Assembly (NCBI GenBank): GCA_002478145.1
Contig: DLMI01000236.1
Location: forward strand, 1 to 12,174
DNA from: Acidobacteria bacterium UBA7540
GTDB taxonomy: Bacteria > Acidobacteriota > Terriglobia > UBA7540
Length of the DNA stretch: 12,174 bases
Reading direction: 5' to 3'
Shown here piece by piece: positions 1-8,500 of this stretch. Position 1 is the first letter of the stretch. The number at the start of each line of letters is the position of its first letter. A program made the position numbers and the translations under genes. The notes under the pieces were generated by a model that did no database searches, was not told the DNA's origin, and saw nothing but the letters and a program-made list of their open reading frames with translations.

Positions 1-3000
1 GAGGGCCTCTCCGTACTTGGTTGGCGGGACACTCCGGTAAACGCCAACACGATTGGACGCCTGGCCCGCAGCACCCAGCCTTACATTGAGCAAGTCTTCA
101 TCCGGCGAGCCTACGGGATGGACCAGGACGCCCTGGAGCGGAAGCTCTACGTCATCCGCAAGCGCGCGGAAAGCGAAGTCGCCAAAACCGAGCTTCGGGA
201 GAAAAGCTTCTTTTACATTCCCTCACTCTCTTCTCGGACGATCGTTTACAAAGGCCTGCTCCTTGCCCCTCAGATCGCCAACTTTTACATCGAGCTGTCG
301 AATTCGGAAGTCAGAAGCGCGATATGTCTGGTTCACCAGCGCTTTTCTACCAACACCTTTCCCACCTGGCATCTTGCACATCCGTACCGCTATCTCTGTC
401 ACAACGGAGAAATCAATACCCTGCGCGGCAACGTGAACTGGATGCACGCGCGGACTTCCGTGCTGGCTTCGCCGCTGTTTGGTGAGGACATCAAGAAACT
501 GGAGCCCATCATCGCCCCTGGCGGCAGCGACTCGGCCAACCTCGACAACGCTGTGGAACTCTTGACGCTCGCCGGGCGCAGCCTTCCTCACGTGATGGAA
601 ATGCTGATTCCGGCAGCCTGGGTGAGCGATCCCACGATGCCGGAAGACGTCAAGGCGTTCTATGAGTACCACGCTTCGTTGATGGAGCCTTGGGACGGCC
701 CGGCGGCGGTGGCTTTCACGGACGGCCGCGTGATCGGCGCCAAGCTCGACCGCAATGGATTGCGACCTGGCCGCTTTCTCGTGACAACCCGCGGCCTGGT
801 CCTTATGGCGTCCGAGGCGGGCGTGTTGCCGGTGAATCCCGCGGAGATCCGCTTCAAGGGCAGGCTCGAGCCGGGCCGTATGCTCCTCGTGGACACGGAA
901 AAGGGGCTTGTCATTCCCGATGAGGAGATCAAGAAGGAATTGGCTGCCAGGCGGCCTTACGCGAAGTGGCTGAGGGAAAACCAGATTACGCTGAAGCAGT
1001 TGGCCGATCCGCCGCGTGTCCAGCCCACTGACCACGCCACTATCCTGATGCGACAGCGCGCTTTCGGGTACACCGACGAGGACCTGCGCATCATCATGAT
1101 TCCCATGGCGCACAACGGCGAAGAGCCCGTGGGGTCGATGGGAACCGATACTCCTCTTGCTTGCCTCTCGGACAAGCCCCAGTTGCTGTTCAATTACTTC
1201 AAGCAGATGTTCGCCCAGGTCACCAACCCGGCGATTGACCCCATTCGTGAAGACTTGGTCATGTCGCTCTACGACTTCATCGGGCGGGAGGGCAACATCC
1301 TGGACGAGACGCCCCAGCTCTGCCACACGCTGAAGAAGCGCCATCCCATGGTGACCAACTGGAACCTGGAAAAACTTCGCCGTGTCAGCCAGGGAGATTT
1401 TCTTGCCACCACGCTGCCCATGCTTTTTCGCGCGCAGGGTGGCGAGAAGCGCCTGGAGGAGGCGGTGGAGAGCCTTTGTCGTAGCGCGTCCTTGGCGATC
1501 AAGTCCGGCTATACGCTGCTGATTCTCTCCGACCGCGGCGTGGATGAGGAGTACGCGCCCATTCCGAGTCTCCTGGCATTATCAGCCGTGCACAATCATT
1601 TGGTGCGGGAGAAGACACGGACCCAGGTGGCCCTCATCGTCGAGACGGGCGAGCCGCGCGAGGTCATGCATTTCGCGCTCTTGCTCGGCTACGGGGCCAG
1701 CGCCATCAATCCCTATCTGGCTATCGAAACGCTGGAAGATCTGCACGTTCGAGGGCACTTTCCCCCCGCTTACACGTTTCAAAAGCTCCTGAAGAATTAC
1801 ATTAAAGCCGTCGATAAGGGACTGCTGAAGGTCCTTTCCAAGATGGGGATCTCGACCCTGCAGAGCTATTGCGGGGCTCAAATCTTCGAGGCGATCGGGC
1901 TCAACCGCGCCGTCGTGGAGCGCTACTTCACGGGCACGGCTTCTCGGATTGAGGGCGTGGGTCTGGAGGTTCTGGCCCGCGAAGCCCTCACGAAGCACAA
2001 GTTCGCAATGCAGTCGCCGGCTGAGTCCGAAACCGAGCTGGAGATTGGCGGCAGCTACCAATATCGAGAGCGGGGTGAGCGGCACCTGCTGAATCCTCTC
2101 ACCATCAGCAAACTTCAGCATGCGGTGAGGCAGTCCAGCTACCCCACGTTTCAGGAGTACGCGAAGATCGTCAATGGGCAAAGCCGGGATCTCTACACGC
2201 TGCGAGGCATGCTTGATTTCCGGTCCGCCGGCCCGCCGCTGCCCATCGACGAAGTGGAACCGGCGTCTGAAATCGTCAAGCGGTTCGCCACGGGCGCGAT
2301 GTCCTTCGGTTCCATTAGCAAGGAAGCGCATGAGACACTGGCCATCGCCATGAACCGCATTGGCGGCCGCTCCAACACCGGCGAGGGCGGAGAGGATGAA
2401 GCGCGCTTCCGCCCCGACCCCAACGGCGACTTGCGCCGCAGCGCCGTGAAACAGGTAGCCTCGGCCCGGTTCGGTGTGACCACGAATTACCTGGTGAACG
2501 CGGATGAATTGCAGATCAAGATTGCGCAAGGCGCCAAGCCCGGCGAGGGCGGCCAGCTTCCTGGTCACAAGGTTGACGAAGTAGTGGCGCGGGTGCGCCA
2601 CGCCATTCCCGGCGTCGCCCTGATCTCGCCGCCGCCGCACCACGACATCTACTCGATTGAGGACTTGGCGCAGCTCATCTACGACCTCAAGAACGTGAAC
2701 CCGCAGGCGAGGATTTCCGTGAAGCTGGTGGCTGAATCGGGCGTGGGGACCGTGGCAGCGGGGGTGGCCAAAGCGCATGCCGATGTTATCCTCATCTGCG
2801 GCTACGACGGGGGAACCGGGGCCTCCCCGATTTCCTCCATCCGGCACGCTGGCATCCCTTGGGAGCTCGGCCTCTCGGAAACCCAGCAAGTCCTGGTGAT
2901 GAATGACCTGCGCAGCCGCGTCCGCCTGCAAGTCGATGGGAAATTGCAGTCTGGGCGCGATGTGGCCATCGCCGCCCTGCTCGGCGCCGAGGAGTTCGGG

Positions 3001-4332
3001 TTTGCCACTATGCCACTCATCTCTATGGGCTGCATTATGATGCGTAAGTGCCATCTGAACACCTGCCCGGTAGGCGTGGCGACGCAGGACCCCGAACTGC
3101 GGAAGAGATTCAAAGGCCAGCCCGAACACGTGATCAACTTCCTGTTTTTCATTGCCGAAGATCTGCGGCAGATTATGGCGCAGCTTGGCTTCCGCAGAGT
3201 CGATGAGATGGTCGGGCGCGTCGATTGCCTCGTGCAGCGCCCGGACGTGGACCACTGGAAAGCCCGCGGCTTGGATTTGTCCTCAGTCCTTCACAATCCT
3301 CAGGTGCCCACACGGGTGGGGCGGCGCTGCCTGATCAAACAGGACCACGGACTGGAGAAATCGCTCGATTATCAGTTGATCGACCATGCGCGTGAGGCGC
3401 TCGAGCGCAGCGCGCAAGTGTCGATCAGTCTCCCTATCCGAAACACCCACCGGACGGTGGGCGCGATGTTGAGCGGCGAGATTGCCCGCCGCTATGGCTC
3501 CGAGGGTTTGCCGGATGACACCATCCGGTTCGAGTTCACCGGTTCGGCGGGGCAGAGCTTCGGTGCTTTCCTGGCGAAAGGCGTCACCTTGGTTCTTGAG
3601 GGCGAAGCCAACGATTACGTCGGCAAGGGGCTTTCAGGAGGTAGGCTCATTGTTTATCCTCCCCGAACTTCGTCGTTCCAGCCCGAGGAGAATATCCTGG
3701 TGGGGAACGTGGTTCTGTACGGGGCCACGAGCGGCGAAGCCTATTTCAACGGCATGGCCGGCGAACGCTTCGCGGTGCGCAATTCCGGGGCCACGGCGGT
3801 GGTGGAGGCGGTCGGCGACCACGGTTGTGAATACATGACTAAGGGGACGGTGATCGTGTTGGGCAAGACCGGCCGCAACTTTGCCGCTGGCATGACGGGC
3901 GGCATTGCTTATGTCCTGGATGAAACCGGAGAGTTCGCCCAGGTGCGCTGTAACCGCGCCAGCGTGGACCTCGAGCCCGTAACAAACTGTAGGGGTAGGG
4001 CTTGCCCTACCCCCTCCCGAACCCGCGATGAGGGGACGGCAAGCCGTCCCCCTACCCCCGCCCGAACCCGCGATGAGGGGACGGCAAGCCGTCCCCCTAC
4101 CGATTCGAACGATGCTGATTTGATTGAATTCTTGATCGCTCGCCACGCGGAGCTGACCGGCAGCCCGCGGGCGAAATGGATTCTGGATAACTGGGAGGCG
4201 ATGCTGCCGAAGTTCATTAAGGTCTTCCCGCACGAATACAAGCGAGTGCTGGGTGTTCCACGCGCCTCCGCAACTCTGGCCCCGGTTCATGCCTCGGCTC
4301 AGCAGTCAACCCGGGAGGTGCTGCGTGGGTAA
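1..4332 (+). CDS. gltB: Glutamate synthase (NADPH) large subunit, 5'-truncated by the window edge
   Basis: Large (alpha) subunit of bacterial glutamate synthase: it hydrolyses glutamine, channels the ammonia to 2-oxoglutarate and forms glutamate at FMN with electrons from GltD. The frame is open from base 1, so the first in-frame ATG (118) is internal; roughly the first 100 residues, including the catalytic N-terminal Cys, are missing. In window residue numbers: the rest of the class II glutaminase domain comes first (motifs [15 protein letters not shown] and HNGEIN), then the central domain (about 355-660), then the FMN/2-oxoglutarate barrel (SNTGEGGED near 791, [10 protein letters not shown]). 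The [3Fe-4S] cysteines are C1011, C1017 and C1022 (C-x5-C-x4-C). The GXGXG beta-helix domain follows at about 1143-1320. An odd repeat-encoded insert occupies about residues 1330-1367, before a normal-looking tail ([15 protein letters not shown]). The stop TAA overlaps the start of gltD. Identification is firm. Confidence 0.97.
3989..4101 (+). repeat. Palindromic repeat block inserted in frame inside gltB
   Basis: Three back-to-back perfect hairpins lie in the coding sequence: arms 3992-4001/4004-4013 (10 bp, loop TT), 4032-4040/4043-4051 (9 bp, loop AA) and 4077-4085/4088-4096 (9 bp, loop AA). The last two belong to a direct repeat, 4016-4056 and 4061-4101, identical over 41 bases with a period of 45 bases, which is 15 codons and keeps the frame. 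Each unit has a spacer CCCGAACCCGCGATGA followed by the hairpin and CCCCCTAC. The block opens with GTAGGGG and closes with CCCCCTAC, the same style of border seen in intergenic palindromes near 5740-5812. It is translated as two copies of a 15-residue unit containing [13 protein letters not shown]. GltB homologues, as I know them, have nothing comparable here. Confidence 0.9.
4313..4320 (+). promoter_or_regulatory. Shine-Dalgarno site of gltD, inside the end of gltB
   Basis: GGGAGGTG lies 6 bases (counting from GGAGG) before GTG 4325 and sets the gltD start. No comparable site precedes the upstream in-frame ATG at 4253. Because the site is within gltB, GltD is probably made by translational coupling. 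Confidence 0.8.
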
Positions 4333-5740
4333 GGTGACCGGATTCATGGAGTACACGCGCGAAGTCCCGGGGCGCCGGCCCGTCCCGGAGCGCGTCAATG
4401 ATTTCCAGGAGGTGTACCAGGAATTCCCGGAGCAGAAGCTGCGCATTCAGGCGGCGCGCTGCATGGATTGCGGCGTGCCCTTCTGCCACACGGGCTGCCC
4501 GCTTAATAACGTCATCCCGGATTGGAATGACCTCATCTATCGCGATCGCTGGAAGGAAGCCATTCGCACCCTCCACGCCACGAACAACTTCCCCGAATTC
4601 ACCGGACGAGTATGCCCGGCGCCCTGCGAAGCTGCCTGCGTTTTGGGTATTAACAACCCTCCTGTTACGATCAAGAACATTGAACAAGCAATCATTGAGC
4701 ACGCCTTCCGCGAGGGCTGGATCCATCCCGAACCCCCTTCCAACCGGACCGGCAAGCACGTGGCCGTCGTCGGCTCGGGACCTGCCGGCCTGGCCGCAGC
4801 GCAGCAACTAAACCGCGCGGGGCATACGGTGACAGTGTTCGAAAAGGCCGACCGCATCGGCGGTCTGCTGCGGTATGGCATCCCGGACTTCAAGCTGGGA
4901 AAGCATATTCTTGACCGGCGACTCGAGCAGATGGCCCGGGAAGGAGTGGTTTTCAAAACCCGGAAGCACGTCGGGCAAAACCTTTCAGTGGAAGACTTGC
5001 GCCGCGAGTTCGACGCCATCCTGCTGGCGGGAGGCGCCGAGAGTCCGCGCGACCTCAATGTCCCGGGACGCGAGCTCAAGGGTATCCATTTCGCCATGGA
5101 GTACCTCCCGCAACAGAACCGCCGCCTGGCCGGAGATGCGGTGGCCCAACAAATCCTGGCCACGCGTAAGCGCGTCGTGATTATCGGCGGCGGGGACACG
5201 GGCGCGGACTGCTTGGGCACTGCGCACAGGCAAAAGCCGGCGTCGGTTCATCAGTTCGAAATCCTCCCCATCCCGCCCATGGAGCGCTCACCAAACACGC
5301 CCTGGCCACTGTGGCCGCTACAGTTGCGCACCGAAGGCGCCCATGAGGAGGGCGGCATTCGAGAATGGGCAGTGGCCACGACCATGTTTGCCGGCGACGA
5401 ACATGGCCACGTGAAACAATTGCATGCGATTCGGGTTGGGCCACCCCCCAAGTTTGATCCGATTCCCAGGACTGACTTCGTGCTCGACGTGGACCTAGTG
5501 CTGATCGCCATGGGCTTCATGGGCCCCGTCAAGAATGGGATGATCGAAGCGCTGGGCGTGAAGCTCGATGCGCGGGGCAACGTCGAGGCGGACACGAATC
5601 ACATGACTTCAGTTCCCGGTGTCTTCGCCGCTGGCGATATGCGCCGCGGCCAATCGCTGGTGGTATGGGCTATCTCCGAAGGCCGCCAGGCGGCGCGCGG
5701 TATTGACCAATACTTGATGGGCGAAACGCAACTGCGGTAG
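4325..5740 (+). CDS. gltD: Glutamate synthase (NADPH) small subunit
   Basis: Beta subunit of glutamate synthase: it oxidises NADPH at FAD and passes electrons through iron-sulfur clusters to GltB. The start is GTG 4325, giving 471 aa, close to the E. coli length of about 472, and an N-terminus GKVTGFMEY typical of the family; it overlaps the gltB stop by 8 bases. Cluster cysteines are C46, C49, C54, C58 ([14 protein letters not shown]) and C97, C101, C105 (CPAPCEAAC). The FAD dinucleotide fold has GSGPAG at 150-155, the NADPH fold GGGDTG at 288-293, and the C-terminal FAD motif FAAGD ends at D438. The gene sits directly behind gltB in one operon. The TAG stop lies inside the first bases of a palindromic repeat (GTAGGGCC), so the repeat may have set the exact C-terminus. 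Identification is firm. Confidence 0.97.
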
Positions 5741-5762
5741 GGCCGAACGGCGTTCGGCCCTC
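5738..5762 (+). repeat. Palindromic element at the gltD stop, possible terminator
   Basis: GGGCCGAAC (5740-5748), loop GGC, GTTCGGCCC (5752-5760): a perfect 9-bp stem that begins in the gltD stop codon. The tail is only TCCTTT, so it is a weak intrinsic terminator at best. The GTAGGG border resembles the element in gltB and the hairpin at 5789-5812, so I read it first as a dispersed repeat that may also end the gltBD transcript. Confidence 0.6.
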
Positions 5763-5788
5763 CTTTGCACCACGCGGGGCGCGGCCCT

Positions 5789-5812
5789 GGGGCGAGCGCC
5801 GCTCGCCCCTAC
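5789..5812. repeat. Second palindromic element downstream of gltD
   Basis: GGGGCGAGC (5789-5797), loop GCC, GCTCGCCCC (5801-5809), followed by TAC. It has a perfect 9-bp stem and a CCCCTAC border like the end of the gltB insert. It lies in the convergent space between gltD and the ABC permease gene. Confidence 0.7.
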
Positions 5813-5840
5813 GCTAAGCCTCCATTTGACTGCGAGGATT

Positions 5841-5886
5841 CTTCGCGGAGTTTACCCTGAGCGGAGCGAACGGGCTCAGAATGACA
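5841..5886. repeat. Dispersed repeat ending in CTCAGAATGACA, copy 1
   Basis: A 23-base core at 5841-5863, starting CTTCGCGGAGTTTACC, recurs exactly at 7182-7204. It ends with CTCAGAATGACA (5875-5886), which also recurs at 7228-7239 and, inverted, at 7097-7108. A looser relative (CGCTCAGGATGACA) follows at 5911-5924. No coding potential is seen. I have seen this style of CATTCTGAGC-type repeat mainly in Acidobacteria. Confidence 0.7.
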
Positions 5887-5924
5887 TGCCGTCCGTTCTT
5901 CGGCTATCCTCGCTCAGGATGACA

Positions 5925-5952
5925 GACTTCTGACTCCTGAATCCTGAATCCT
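5925..5952. repeat. Short heptanucleotide array abutting the permease stop
   Basis: Four consecutive 7-base units: GACTTCT, GACTCCT, GAATCCT, GAATCCT. The array ends 3 bases from the permease stop codon at 5956-5958. It is the same repeat family as the long array at 10123-10368, on which two of the units recur exactly. Confidence 0.75.
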
Positions 5953-7096: not shown

Positions 7097-7239
7097 TGTC
7101 ATTCTGAGCCCCGACTTGTCGGGGCGAAGAATCCCTGCAGTTGTTTTTGCGCTCGGCAGCATCCCACAAACTGCAGAGATGCTTCGCGGAGTTTACCCTG
7201 AGCGAACTGCGGAGATTCTTCGCTTCGCTCAGAATGACA
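7097..7239. repeat. Dispersed repeat between the ABC ATPase and permease genes, copy 2
   Basis: This 143-base stretch is bounded by a perfect 12-base inverted repeat: TGTCATTCTGAG (7097-7108) and CTCAGAATGACA (7228-7239). Inside are a hairpin CCCCGAC-TT-GTCGGGG (7109-7124) and the 23-base core shared with 5841-5863 (here 7182-7204). A partial extra end, GCTCAGCATGACA, follows at 7248-7260. It fills nearly all of the 173-base gap in what should be a two-gene operon. Confidence 0.75.
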
Positions 7240-7268
7240 GGCGAAGGGCTCAGCATGACACAATTCTC

Positions 7269-8210
7269 TCACTCCTCGCGCAAGTGGCGCCCCGTGAGGC
7301 GAACGAAGACGTCCTCCAAGCTGGCTTGTCGCGTCGTGAGGTGCAGCAGGTGCGAGCCGCGCTTGTGCAAGGCCGCCAGCAGGGCGGGGATGGTCTCGTG
7401 AGTTTCGCGCACGCTCAGCACGACCCTACCGTCTTCCACATGGACCGCCTCGACACCCGGGAGCGACCGCCACAGCTCCGTTGCGATGGGGTCATTACCC
7501 GTGGCATCAAATTCCACCATCTGATGCCCACCCAGTTCCTCAACCAATTCGGTGGGACTTCCGGAGGCGATGGCGCGGCCATGATCGATGATCGCGATGC
7601 GGTTGCAAAGCCGCTCCGCTTCGTCCATATAGTGCGTCGTCAGCAGGATGGTCCCGCCGCGGCGCTGGAACTGACGGATGATGTCCCAAAGCTGCCGCCG
7701 GCTTTGCGGGTCCAGCCCCGTCGTGGGTTCATCGAGAAACAGTATTTTCGGATTGGCCACCAGAGCGGTGGCTACCGCGAGCCGTTGTCTCTGGCCTCCG
7801 GAGAGCTTCCCGACCCAGCTATTCGCCTTTTCGGTAAGGGCCATTTCTTCCATAACCTCGAGGGTCGAACGTGGATAGCGATAGAAGCTGGCGAAAAGCT
7901 CCAGTGTTTCCCGCACCGTGAGCTTCTCGCCGAGGCGAGTCTCCTGTAACGAGATGCCTAACACCTCGCGCAGTTCCCGGCTGTGGGCGTTCCAGGTCTT
8001 TCCTAGAATCTCAACTTCGCCGGACGTTTGCGAGAGCAGTCCCTCCAGTATCTCGATGGTCGTAGTCTTGCCGGCGCCGTTCGGGCCAAGCAGCCCGAAG
8101 CATTCGCCGGTCAGAATCTCCAAATCGAGTCCCCGAACGGCCTCGACCTTGCCGTCATAGGTCTTGCGCAGGTTACGACATCGTACCGCTACGTCCATGG
8201 TCTGTATCAT
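7269..8210 (-). CDS. ABC transporter ATP-binding protein (ABC-2 export type)
   Basis: Cytoplasmic ATPase that powers the neighbouring permease, 313 aa. Walker A is GPNGAGKTT at 42-50, the Q-loop Gln is Q89, the signature LSGGQ is at 136-140, Walker B ILFLDEP at 156-162, and the H-loop His is H193 (LLTTH). Residues from about 220 form the C-terminal extension (DUF4162-like) ending SLEDVFVRLTGRHL, typical of ATPases paired with ABC-2 permeases. All catalytic motifs are intact. ATG 8210 is taken as the start; ATG 8198 (codon 5) is as likely, since neither has a clear Shine-Dalgarno site. The permease follows after a repeat-filled gap of 173 bases. The substrate is unknown. Confidence 0.94.
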   Translation of the reverse strand: MIQTMDVAVRCRNLRKTYDGKVEAVRGLDLEILTGECFGLLGPNGAGKTTTIEILEGLLSQTSGEVEILGKTWNAHSRELREVLGISLQETRLGEKLTVRETLELFASFYRYPRSTLEVMEEMALTEKANSWVGKLSGGQRQRLAVATALVANPKILFLDEPTTGLDPQSRRQLWDIIRQFQRRGGTILLTTHYMDEAERLCNRIAIIDHGRAIASGSPTELVEELGGHQMVEFDATGNDPIATELWRSLPGVEAVHVEDGRVVLSVRETHETIPALLAALHKRGSHLLHLTTRQASLEDVFVRLTGRHLREE

Positions 8211-8291: not shown

Positions 8292-8500
8292 ATTTCTCAC
8301 CAAGCCGGGACGCCTTTAGGGGCGGTACCGGAAGGGCGGGGCTTCAGCCCCGCCGAAATCACGGCTCCCGCCCTCTGTTGGCCCGCGCCCCGCGCAGCTT
8401 GCGGCTGCAAGCTGCGCGGGGCGCGGGACACGGGAATAATTTGGAAGCCCCTGTAGCGGCGGGGCTGAAGCCCCGCCCTCCCAGACCCGCGGTGAGAAAT
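8292..8500. repeat. Nested palindromic element with a perfect 21-bp hairpin
   Basis: Three inverted repeats are nested in each other. The outer is ATTTCTCACC (8292-8301) with GGTGAGAAAT (8491-8500). The middle is a 22-base sequence at 8334-8355 with its exact reverse complement at 8457-8478; each copy is itself a 9-bp palindrome (GGCGGGGCT, 2-base loop, AGCCCCGCC). The centre is a perfect 21-bp stem, 8382-8402 with 8407-8427, and the loop GGCT. No coding signal is seen. The nesting suggests palindromes inserted into palindromes, or one structured element. Confidence 0.85.

Follow-up and report, generated by a model that had tools for sequence, protein, structure and literature searches.

The gene for the large subunit of glutamate synthase (gltB) in the DNA of Acidobacteria bacterium UBA7540 analysed here, a stretch of 12,174 nt that we call the window, carries within its reading frame an array of palindromic repeats whose sequence identifies it as two GTAG-tagged REPs in opposite orientation, that is, a head-to-head dimer or REPIN. 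We consider it very probable that such a dimer, belonging to a family dispersed through the lineage, was inserted in frame into a flexible loop of GltB, was tolerated there, and that its units have since been duplicated and lost by whole codons. The intragenic array itself is real and well supported, and intragenic REPs as a class are already known. The genes of the window follow one another in the order gltB (partial), gltD, an ABC transporter pair, a protein with no Pfam match, rubrerythrin, and a NIPSNAP protein, with gltD presumably starting at a GTG that overlaps the end of gltB. The best-matching relatives that bear names are Terriglobia/Acidobacteriia bacteria. The features on which the argument depends are the following:

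1..4332, plus strand: gltB, glutamate synthase large subunit (Pfam GATase_2, Glu_syn_central, Glu_synthase and GXGXG), its 5' end outside the window
3989..4101, plus strand: in-frame REP array, hairpin A, spacer, B1, spacer, B2, net gain 39 codons (direct reading; covariance model R1)
3989..3992, plus strand: GTAG tag at the left end of the array (direct reading; GTAG class as in the sections of PMC3733652 devoted to it)
3992..4013, plus strand: hairpin A, GGGGTAGGGC TT GCCCTACCCC (direct reading)
4032..4051, plus strand: hairpin B1, GGGGACGGC AA GCCGTCCCC, with its tag CTAC (GTAG on the minus strand) at 4052-4055
4077..4096, plus strand: hairpin B2, of the same sequence as B1, with its tag CTAC at 4097-4100
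4005..4094, plus strand: two 45-base direct repeats (spacer plus B), bounded by CCCTACC at 4005, 4050 and 4095
4325..5740, plus strand: gltD, small subunit of glutamate synthase (the frame 4253-5740 contains Pfam Fer4_20 and Pyr_redox_2)
5737..5812, plus strand: a second GTAG REP head-to-head dimer, of another sequence family, whose GTAG supplies the gltD stop TAG (5738-5740)

The first-pass annotation had described three perfect hairpins and two 45-base units in the gltB frame, uninterrupted by a stop or a frameshift, and all of these could be located: the hairpins A, B1, and B2 have perfect stems of 9-10 bp around TT or AA, the two copies of the direct repeat (4005-4049 and 4050-4094, 45 nt each) differ by one mismatch (98% identity), and the frame stays open across the insert and throughout 1-4332, where the four glutamate-synthase Pfam domains are found. 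Its placement of the insert between the GXGXG domain and the C-terminal tail also holds, the insert beginning at the end of the GXGXG domain match (residue 1329), and only its size needs amending, from about 38 residues to a net 39 codons, as measured between P0001 (1567 aa) and P0010 and other proteins that lack the insert (1528 aa). The hairpins stand well apart from chance: no match to the B palindrome (up to 3 mismatches) was found across 200 dinucleotide shuffles, and a scan for GTAG plus hairpin returned 15 raw matches in the window (several per place), set against none in 19 of 20 Markov shuffles and a single match in the remaining one. Read as RNA, the array folds far better than shuffled sequence (z -5.8); the folding program closes a 4-nt loop in the array hairpins, and hairpins A and B are able to pair with each other.

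A GTAG-tagged REP is recognized by its end tag, GTAG or a close variant, by a stem of 6-13 bp with a short loop, and by many dispersed copies, and a REPIN by two inverted REPs with GTAG on the outside and a spacer between them. The array has GTAG at 3989 beside A and minus-strand GTAG beside B1 and B2, its stems and loops lie within that range, its REPs are inverted about a spacer with the tags outward, and dispersed copies are plentiful in the genomes of relatives, which is where the copies were counted. Hairpin A and the reverse complement of hairpin B share GGGG..GGCTTGCC..CCCC and both have GTAG outermost; this common core together with the outward tags makes the element a head-to-head heterodimer of GTAG-tagged REPs. 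The core of hairpin B occurs 40 times in the related genome G261 and 4 times in G330; at 30 distinct core places that were inspected, the core of hairpin A lay upstream in 17 by test and in 3 more by eye, the other 10 including lone core matches in coding sequence. Most commonly a dispersed copy reads GTAGGGGTAGGGCTTGCCCTACCC and GGGGACGGCAAGCCGTCCCCCTAC with about 25 nt between them, and the copies in G261 and G330 mostly show the same A-spacer-B order with GTAG/CTAC ends. A covariance model (R1) built from 18 chosen copies from G261, G330, and G367, with the window excluded, matches the window at 3982-4060 with 65.4 bits (E 8.3e-16), and has matches in 11 of the 39 family genomes, among them 102 in G261 and 18 in G330, counts in which both strands of one copy may figure. 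The exact hairpin was present in 5 of 399 genomes of the class and its reversed-pattern control in 0, while Rfam gave no match for the element. Several R1 matches fall within about 2.4 kb and 1.3 kb at two loci of genome G292 (L297 on contig C32 and L298 on C1), suggesting clusters of REP dimers. Bryobacteraceae were considered as the home family of the element and rejected: a looser form of the hairpin pattern occurs in 36 of 237 of their genomes, at no more than 2 distinct places in each, and GltB identity is higher in the family of G330, whose own GltB is 90% identical to that of the window (window residues 1001-1329).

Some of the dispersed copies also lie in open reading frames. Among 32 distinct palindrome-core places in fetched loci, a few of them lone core matches, some ORF ran across 17, and the 9 of these 17 that were scanned gave no Pfam match in the ORF; among 16 larger regions (L301-L316), an ORF of at least 120 aa, by mechanical call, covered the element in 6 (L301, L302, L304, L310, L314, and L316) and none did so in 10. 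A search for the 44-residue peptide of the insert elsewhere, over two length ranges, found it in GltB only, a weak result since the single-dimer proteins P0004-P0008 were missed as well.

The presence of the insert among relatives was followed with the C-terminal 204 residues of GltB as query, for which 7998 proteins were scored and the best 120 examined. Among these best 120, 7 carry the insert (P0001, P0002, and P0004-P0008), 111 lack it, and 2 (P0003 and P0041) are unaligned at that position; four further carriers are P0121-P0124. The suggestion of the first pass that a REP-like element had entered gltB at a tolerated loop, which it had proposed to check by alignment with homologues, is thus borne out by the dispersed copies and by the insert-less relatives. 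The insert was likewise found in none of 30 Bryobacteraceae gltB loci fetched out of 218 matching genomes, and, in the family of G330, in none of the 29 distinct gltB-like loci that were fetched and could be read, 1 more being masked. The loop joins the GXGXG beta-helix to the C-terminal helices. Its flexibility, and the fact that GltB proteins vary there anyway, would account for its tolerance of an insertion, and alphaproteobacterial GltB has another insert at the same loop, unrelated in protein sequence.

The carriers differ in the state of the array, which was read from DNA in the window and from protein elsewhere. An A-B array with a two-residue spacer is found in P0005 and P0006 and, in decayed form, in P0004, P0007, and P0008; A-B with a longer spacer in P0124; A-B-B in the window, P0121, and P0122; A-A-A-B in P0123; and A-B-A-A-B in P0002, so that carriers have 2, 3, 4, or 5 hairpin units, every one of them in frame. 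The earlier proposal that a unit of 15 codons lets copy number vary without loss of frame finds support in P0124, which is 97% identical to P0001 (7 mismatches over 273 aligned residues, the last 17 residues being the same) but contains only one dimer, with a net difference of 15 codons in length. In P0124 the spacer has one codon more than in P0001 and the right flank one codon fewer, and this protein is therefore of the precursor type without being the exact precursor of the A-B-B array. The duplicated unit starts at the CCCTACC of A and stops before the CCCTACC of B, and this heptamer is the likely homology for a slippage event, which, between the two repeats, would give A-B-B from A-B in one step.

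On these grounds the history that we favor would begin with a GTAG-tagged REPIN, made up of REP A, a short spacer, and an inverted REP B, which would have entered gltB in frame, in the loop between the beta-helix and the C-terminal helices, in the common ancestor of P0001, P0002, P0004-P0008, and P0121-P0124. Units would later have been gained and lost in whole-codon steps, and in the lineage of the window slippage by 45 bases, with the CCCTACC at the end of A and that at the end of B as the paired repeats, would have turned A-B into A-B-B. The element would, to judge by its class, have been moved by a RAYT-type (Y1) transposase. Y1 transposases (PF01797) are encoded in 34 of the 39 family genomes. 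Of the 20 Y1 genes in G261 and G330, 15 were examined and none has a strong R1 element beside it, which tells against this history; the closest such element is at a distance of about 2 kb, and a weak R1 match (16 bits, E 0.028) was seen some 0.5 kb from one Y1 gene. The additional claim that the phase of the insertion had been selected is weak, as 4 of the 6 frames are free of stops in the element of the window, and between 1 and 4 of them in each of the 18 dispersed copies.

The single origin assumed in this history has to be weighed against the reading that the loop is a repeated landing site at which two groups of carriers acquired REPs independently, which we regard as unlikely. A tree of 39 GltB proteins neither resolves nor rejects a single clade of carriers: the free search does not group them, separating P0001 and P0002 from P0004-P0008 (2 changes, at weakly supported nodes), and we have counted this against our preferred explanation, while a tree in which the carriers are held together is not rejected (p-AU 0.546) and has a likelihood 1.56 log units above that of the free search. 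Outside the insert, P0001 and P0002 are 95% identical, the proteins P0004-P0008 94-97% among themselves, and the two groups about 90% to each other, and the insert-less P0010 (91.1%) and P0014 (90.3%) are as near to P0001 as are the carriers P0004-P0008 (89.7-91.3%), a closeness that we have also counted against a single insertion. The spacers of the two groups are unlike (DE as compared with SRTRDE or PARTREE), but the A-to-B order is the same in both and so are the junction residues, EPVT ... RPP[TA]D in the short arrays and RPPTD in the long ones. One insertion into a common ancestor is still the reading that we prefer.

We find it quite improbable that the hairpins act in the gltB-gltD mRNA, on pausing, on stability, or on the relative expression of gltD, with the added residues being incidental. 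The array lies about 220 nt upstream of the putative gltD start, it folds strongly, and the second REP dimer stands at the gltD stop, but such folding is expected of any REP insertion, and in P0004 and P0008 there are protein changes inside stem codons. The second dimer is itself one of several REPs or REP-like stretches in the window. Hairpins of its type (up to 1 mismatch) occur in 10 of the 39 family genomes; among 8 relatives compared, the gltD stop is TAA or TGA in 6 and TAG in 2 (L318 and L001), no second dimer was seen by eye at the end of gltD, and the G330 locus (L317) has a different GTAG hairpin shortly 3' of the gltD stop. A third REP-like cluster, at 8330-8480, has two hairpins of the GGCGGGGCTNNAGCCCCGCC type, one of them with GTAG at 8453, flanking a 24-bp palindrome (96% complementary) at 8379-8430, and the regions 5835-5930 and 7100-7270 have in common short stretches that resemble each other (GAGTTTACCCTGAGCG and CTCAGAATGACA), perhaps parts of another dispersed repeat.

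It is very doubtful that the insert has become a linker with a selected role in GltB, for instance in oligomer contacts or regulation. The insert has been retained in frame across GltB proteins that are about 90% identical outside it, and its peptide can still be recognized in every carrier seen; against such a role, the array ranges from 2 to 5 units and differs in order, residues have been lost or stem codons changed in P0007 and P0008, and most of the listed relatives are without the insert. An AlphaFold2 model of the C-terminal part of GltB (16 sequences, mean pLDDT 72.5), in a fold that agrees with solved glutamate synthases, assigns a pLDDT below 50 to the modelled residues 194-229, which correspond to the insert, and high confidence to the strand and the helix that enclose them; the insert is thus predicted to be disordered, which also speaks against a selected role. 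Its length variation and decay make a tolerated insertion, probably near-neutral for the enzyme, the simplest reading, and we have abandoned the earlier term "domesticated," which presupposes a function that no evidence supports. An artefact of assembly or binning, finally, is barely conceivable: palindromes and tandem repeats do assemble poorly and the carriers, as far as their origin is given, stem from draft genomes or metagenomes, but the identical 44-residue insert is present in P0121, a JGI sequence that is distinct from P0001 (98.8% identity over 418 residues), and in P0122 (from 10 contigs), whose protein is identical to P0001 and which may be of the same population, and related in-frame inserts occur in eight more protein clusters (P0002, P0004-P0008, P0123, and P0124).

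Compared with known systems, the element resembles the GTAG REP heterodimers in the sections of PMC3733652 (Di Nocera, De Gregorio and Rocco 2013) that treat them, with its terminal GTAG, stems of 9-10 bp, 2-nt loops, and opposite units with GTAG outside, as well as in having dispersed copies, some of them within ORFs and some with ends that supply TAG stops. According to those sections, intragenic REP dimers or groups code for 20-30 aa and clusters for 43-82 aa; a copy-number series within one gene, as in GltB, does not appear in them. REPINs, in the part of PMC3116915 that defines them, share with the present case a mobile unit of two inverted REPs and a spacer, but their definition there draws chiefly on copies outside genes and links them with RAYT genes, none of which was found adjacent to the copies examined here. 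The parallel that the first-pass annotation drew with the RPEs of Rickettsia stands as to the principle of palindromic repeats that code in frame within proteins, and is unsupported as to the identity of the element. PMC3733652, in its passage on intragenic REPs of R. conorii, equates these with RPE-4 and RPE-6 of the CGTC superfamily, whereas the gltB element has GTAG, a comparison that is one of tag and description, and since this tag is borne by the element as well as by its dispersed relatives in the family, membership in the RPEs was not upheld. A literature search among open-licence PMC papers found none that connects glutamate synthase with REPs.

The tails of GltB may hold a further case. 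In P0004-P0008 and P0123 they contain peptides such as VAPTFRSAGG...GADLKVGATS, which fit a translated GTAG REP, GTAGCGCCGACCTTCAGGTCGGC; this tail-type REP is dispersed in 21 of the 39 family genomes, with 97 places in G261, and G383 has a copy of it just 3' of its gltB stop (C19:2968-2990). Going by these peptides, the C-terminal tail is perhaps a second place at which a REP dimer has become coding in gltB. A broader reading, which is conceivable although we lean against it, is that in this clade the coding REP array of the GltB loop is still changing in length, its units being gained and lost between close strains, so that a core enzyme would record both REP mobility and slippage, and that a REP peptide would have entered the C-terminal tail of the sister group as well.

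GTAG REPs are listed in the relevant section of PMC3733652 for the Proteobacteria, Cyanobacteria, Chloroflexi, and the PVC group, with Acidobacteria entered there only for TIR-flanked transposases, and the 2025 REP survey (PMC12306157) counts REPs, in the portion that bears on the phylum, in some Acidobacteriota. What is new is therefore the extension of intragenic GTAG REPs to the Acidobacteriota, which that listing does not include, together with a copy-number series in GltB that is unusually clear. With its states of 0, 2, 3, 4, and 5 units, the series illustrates the steps by which a selfish palindrome turns into protein sequence whose length then varies, in the setting of a well-studied enzyme with solved relatives.
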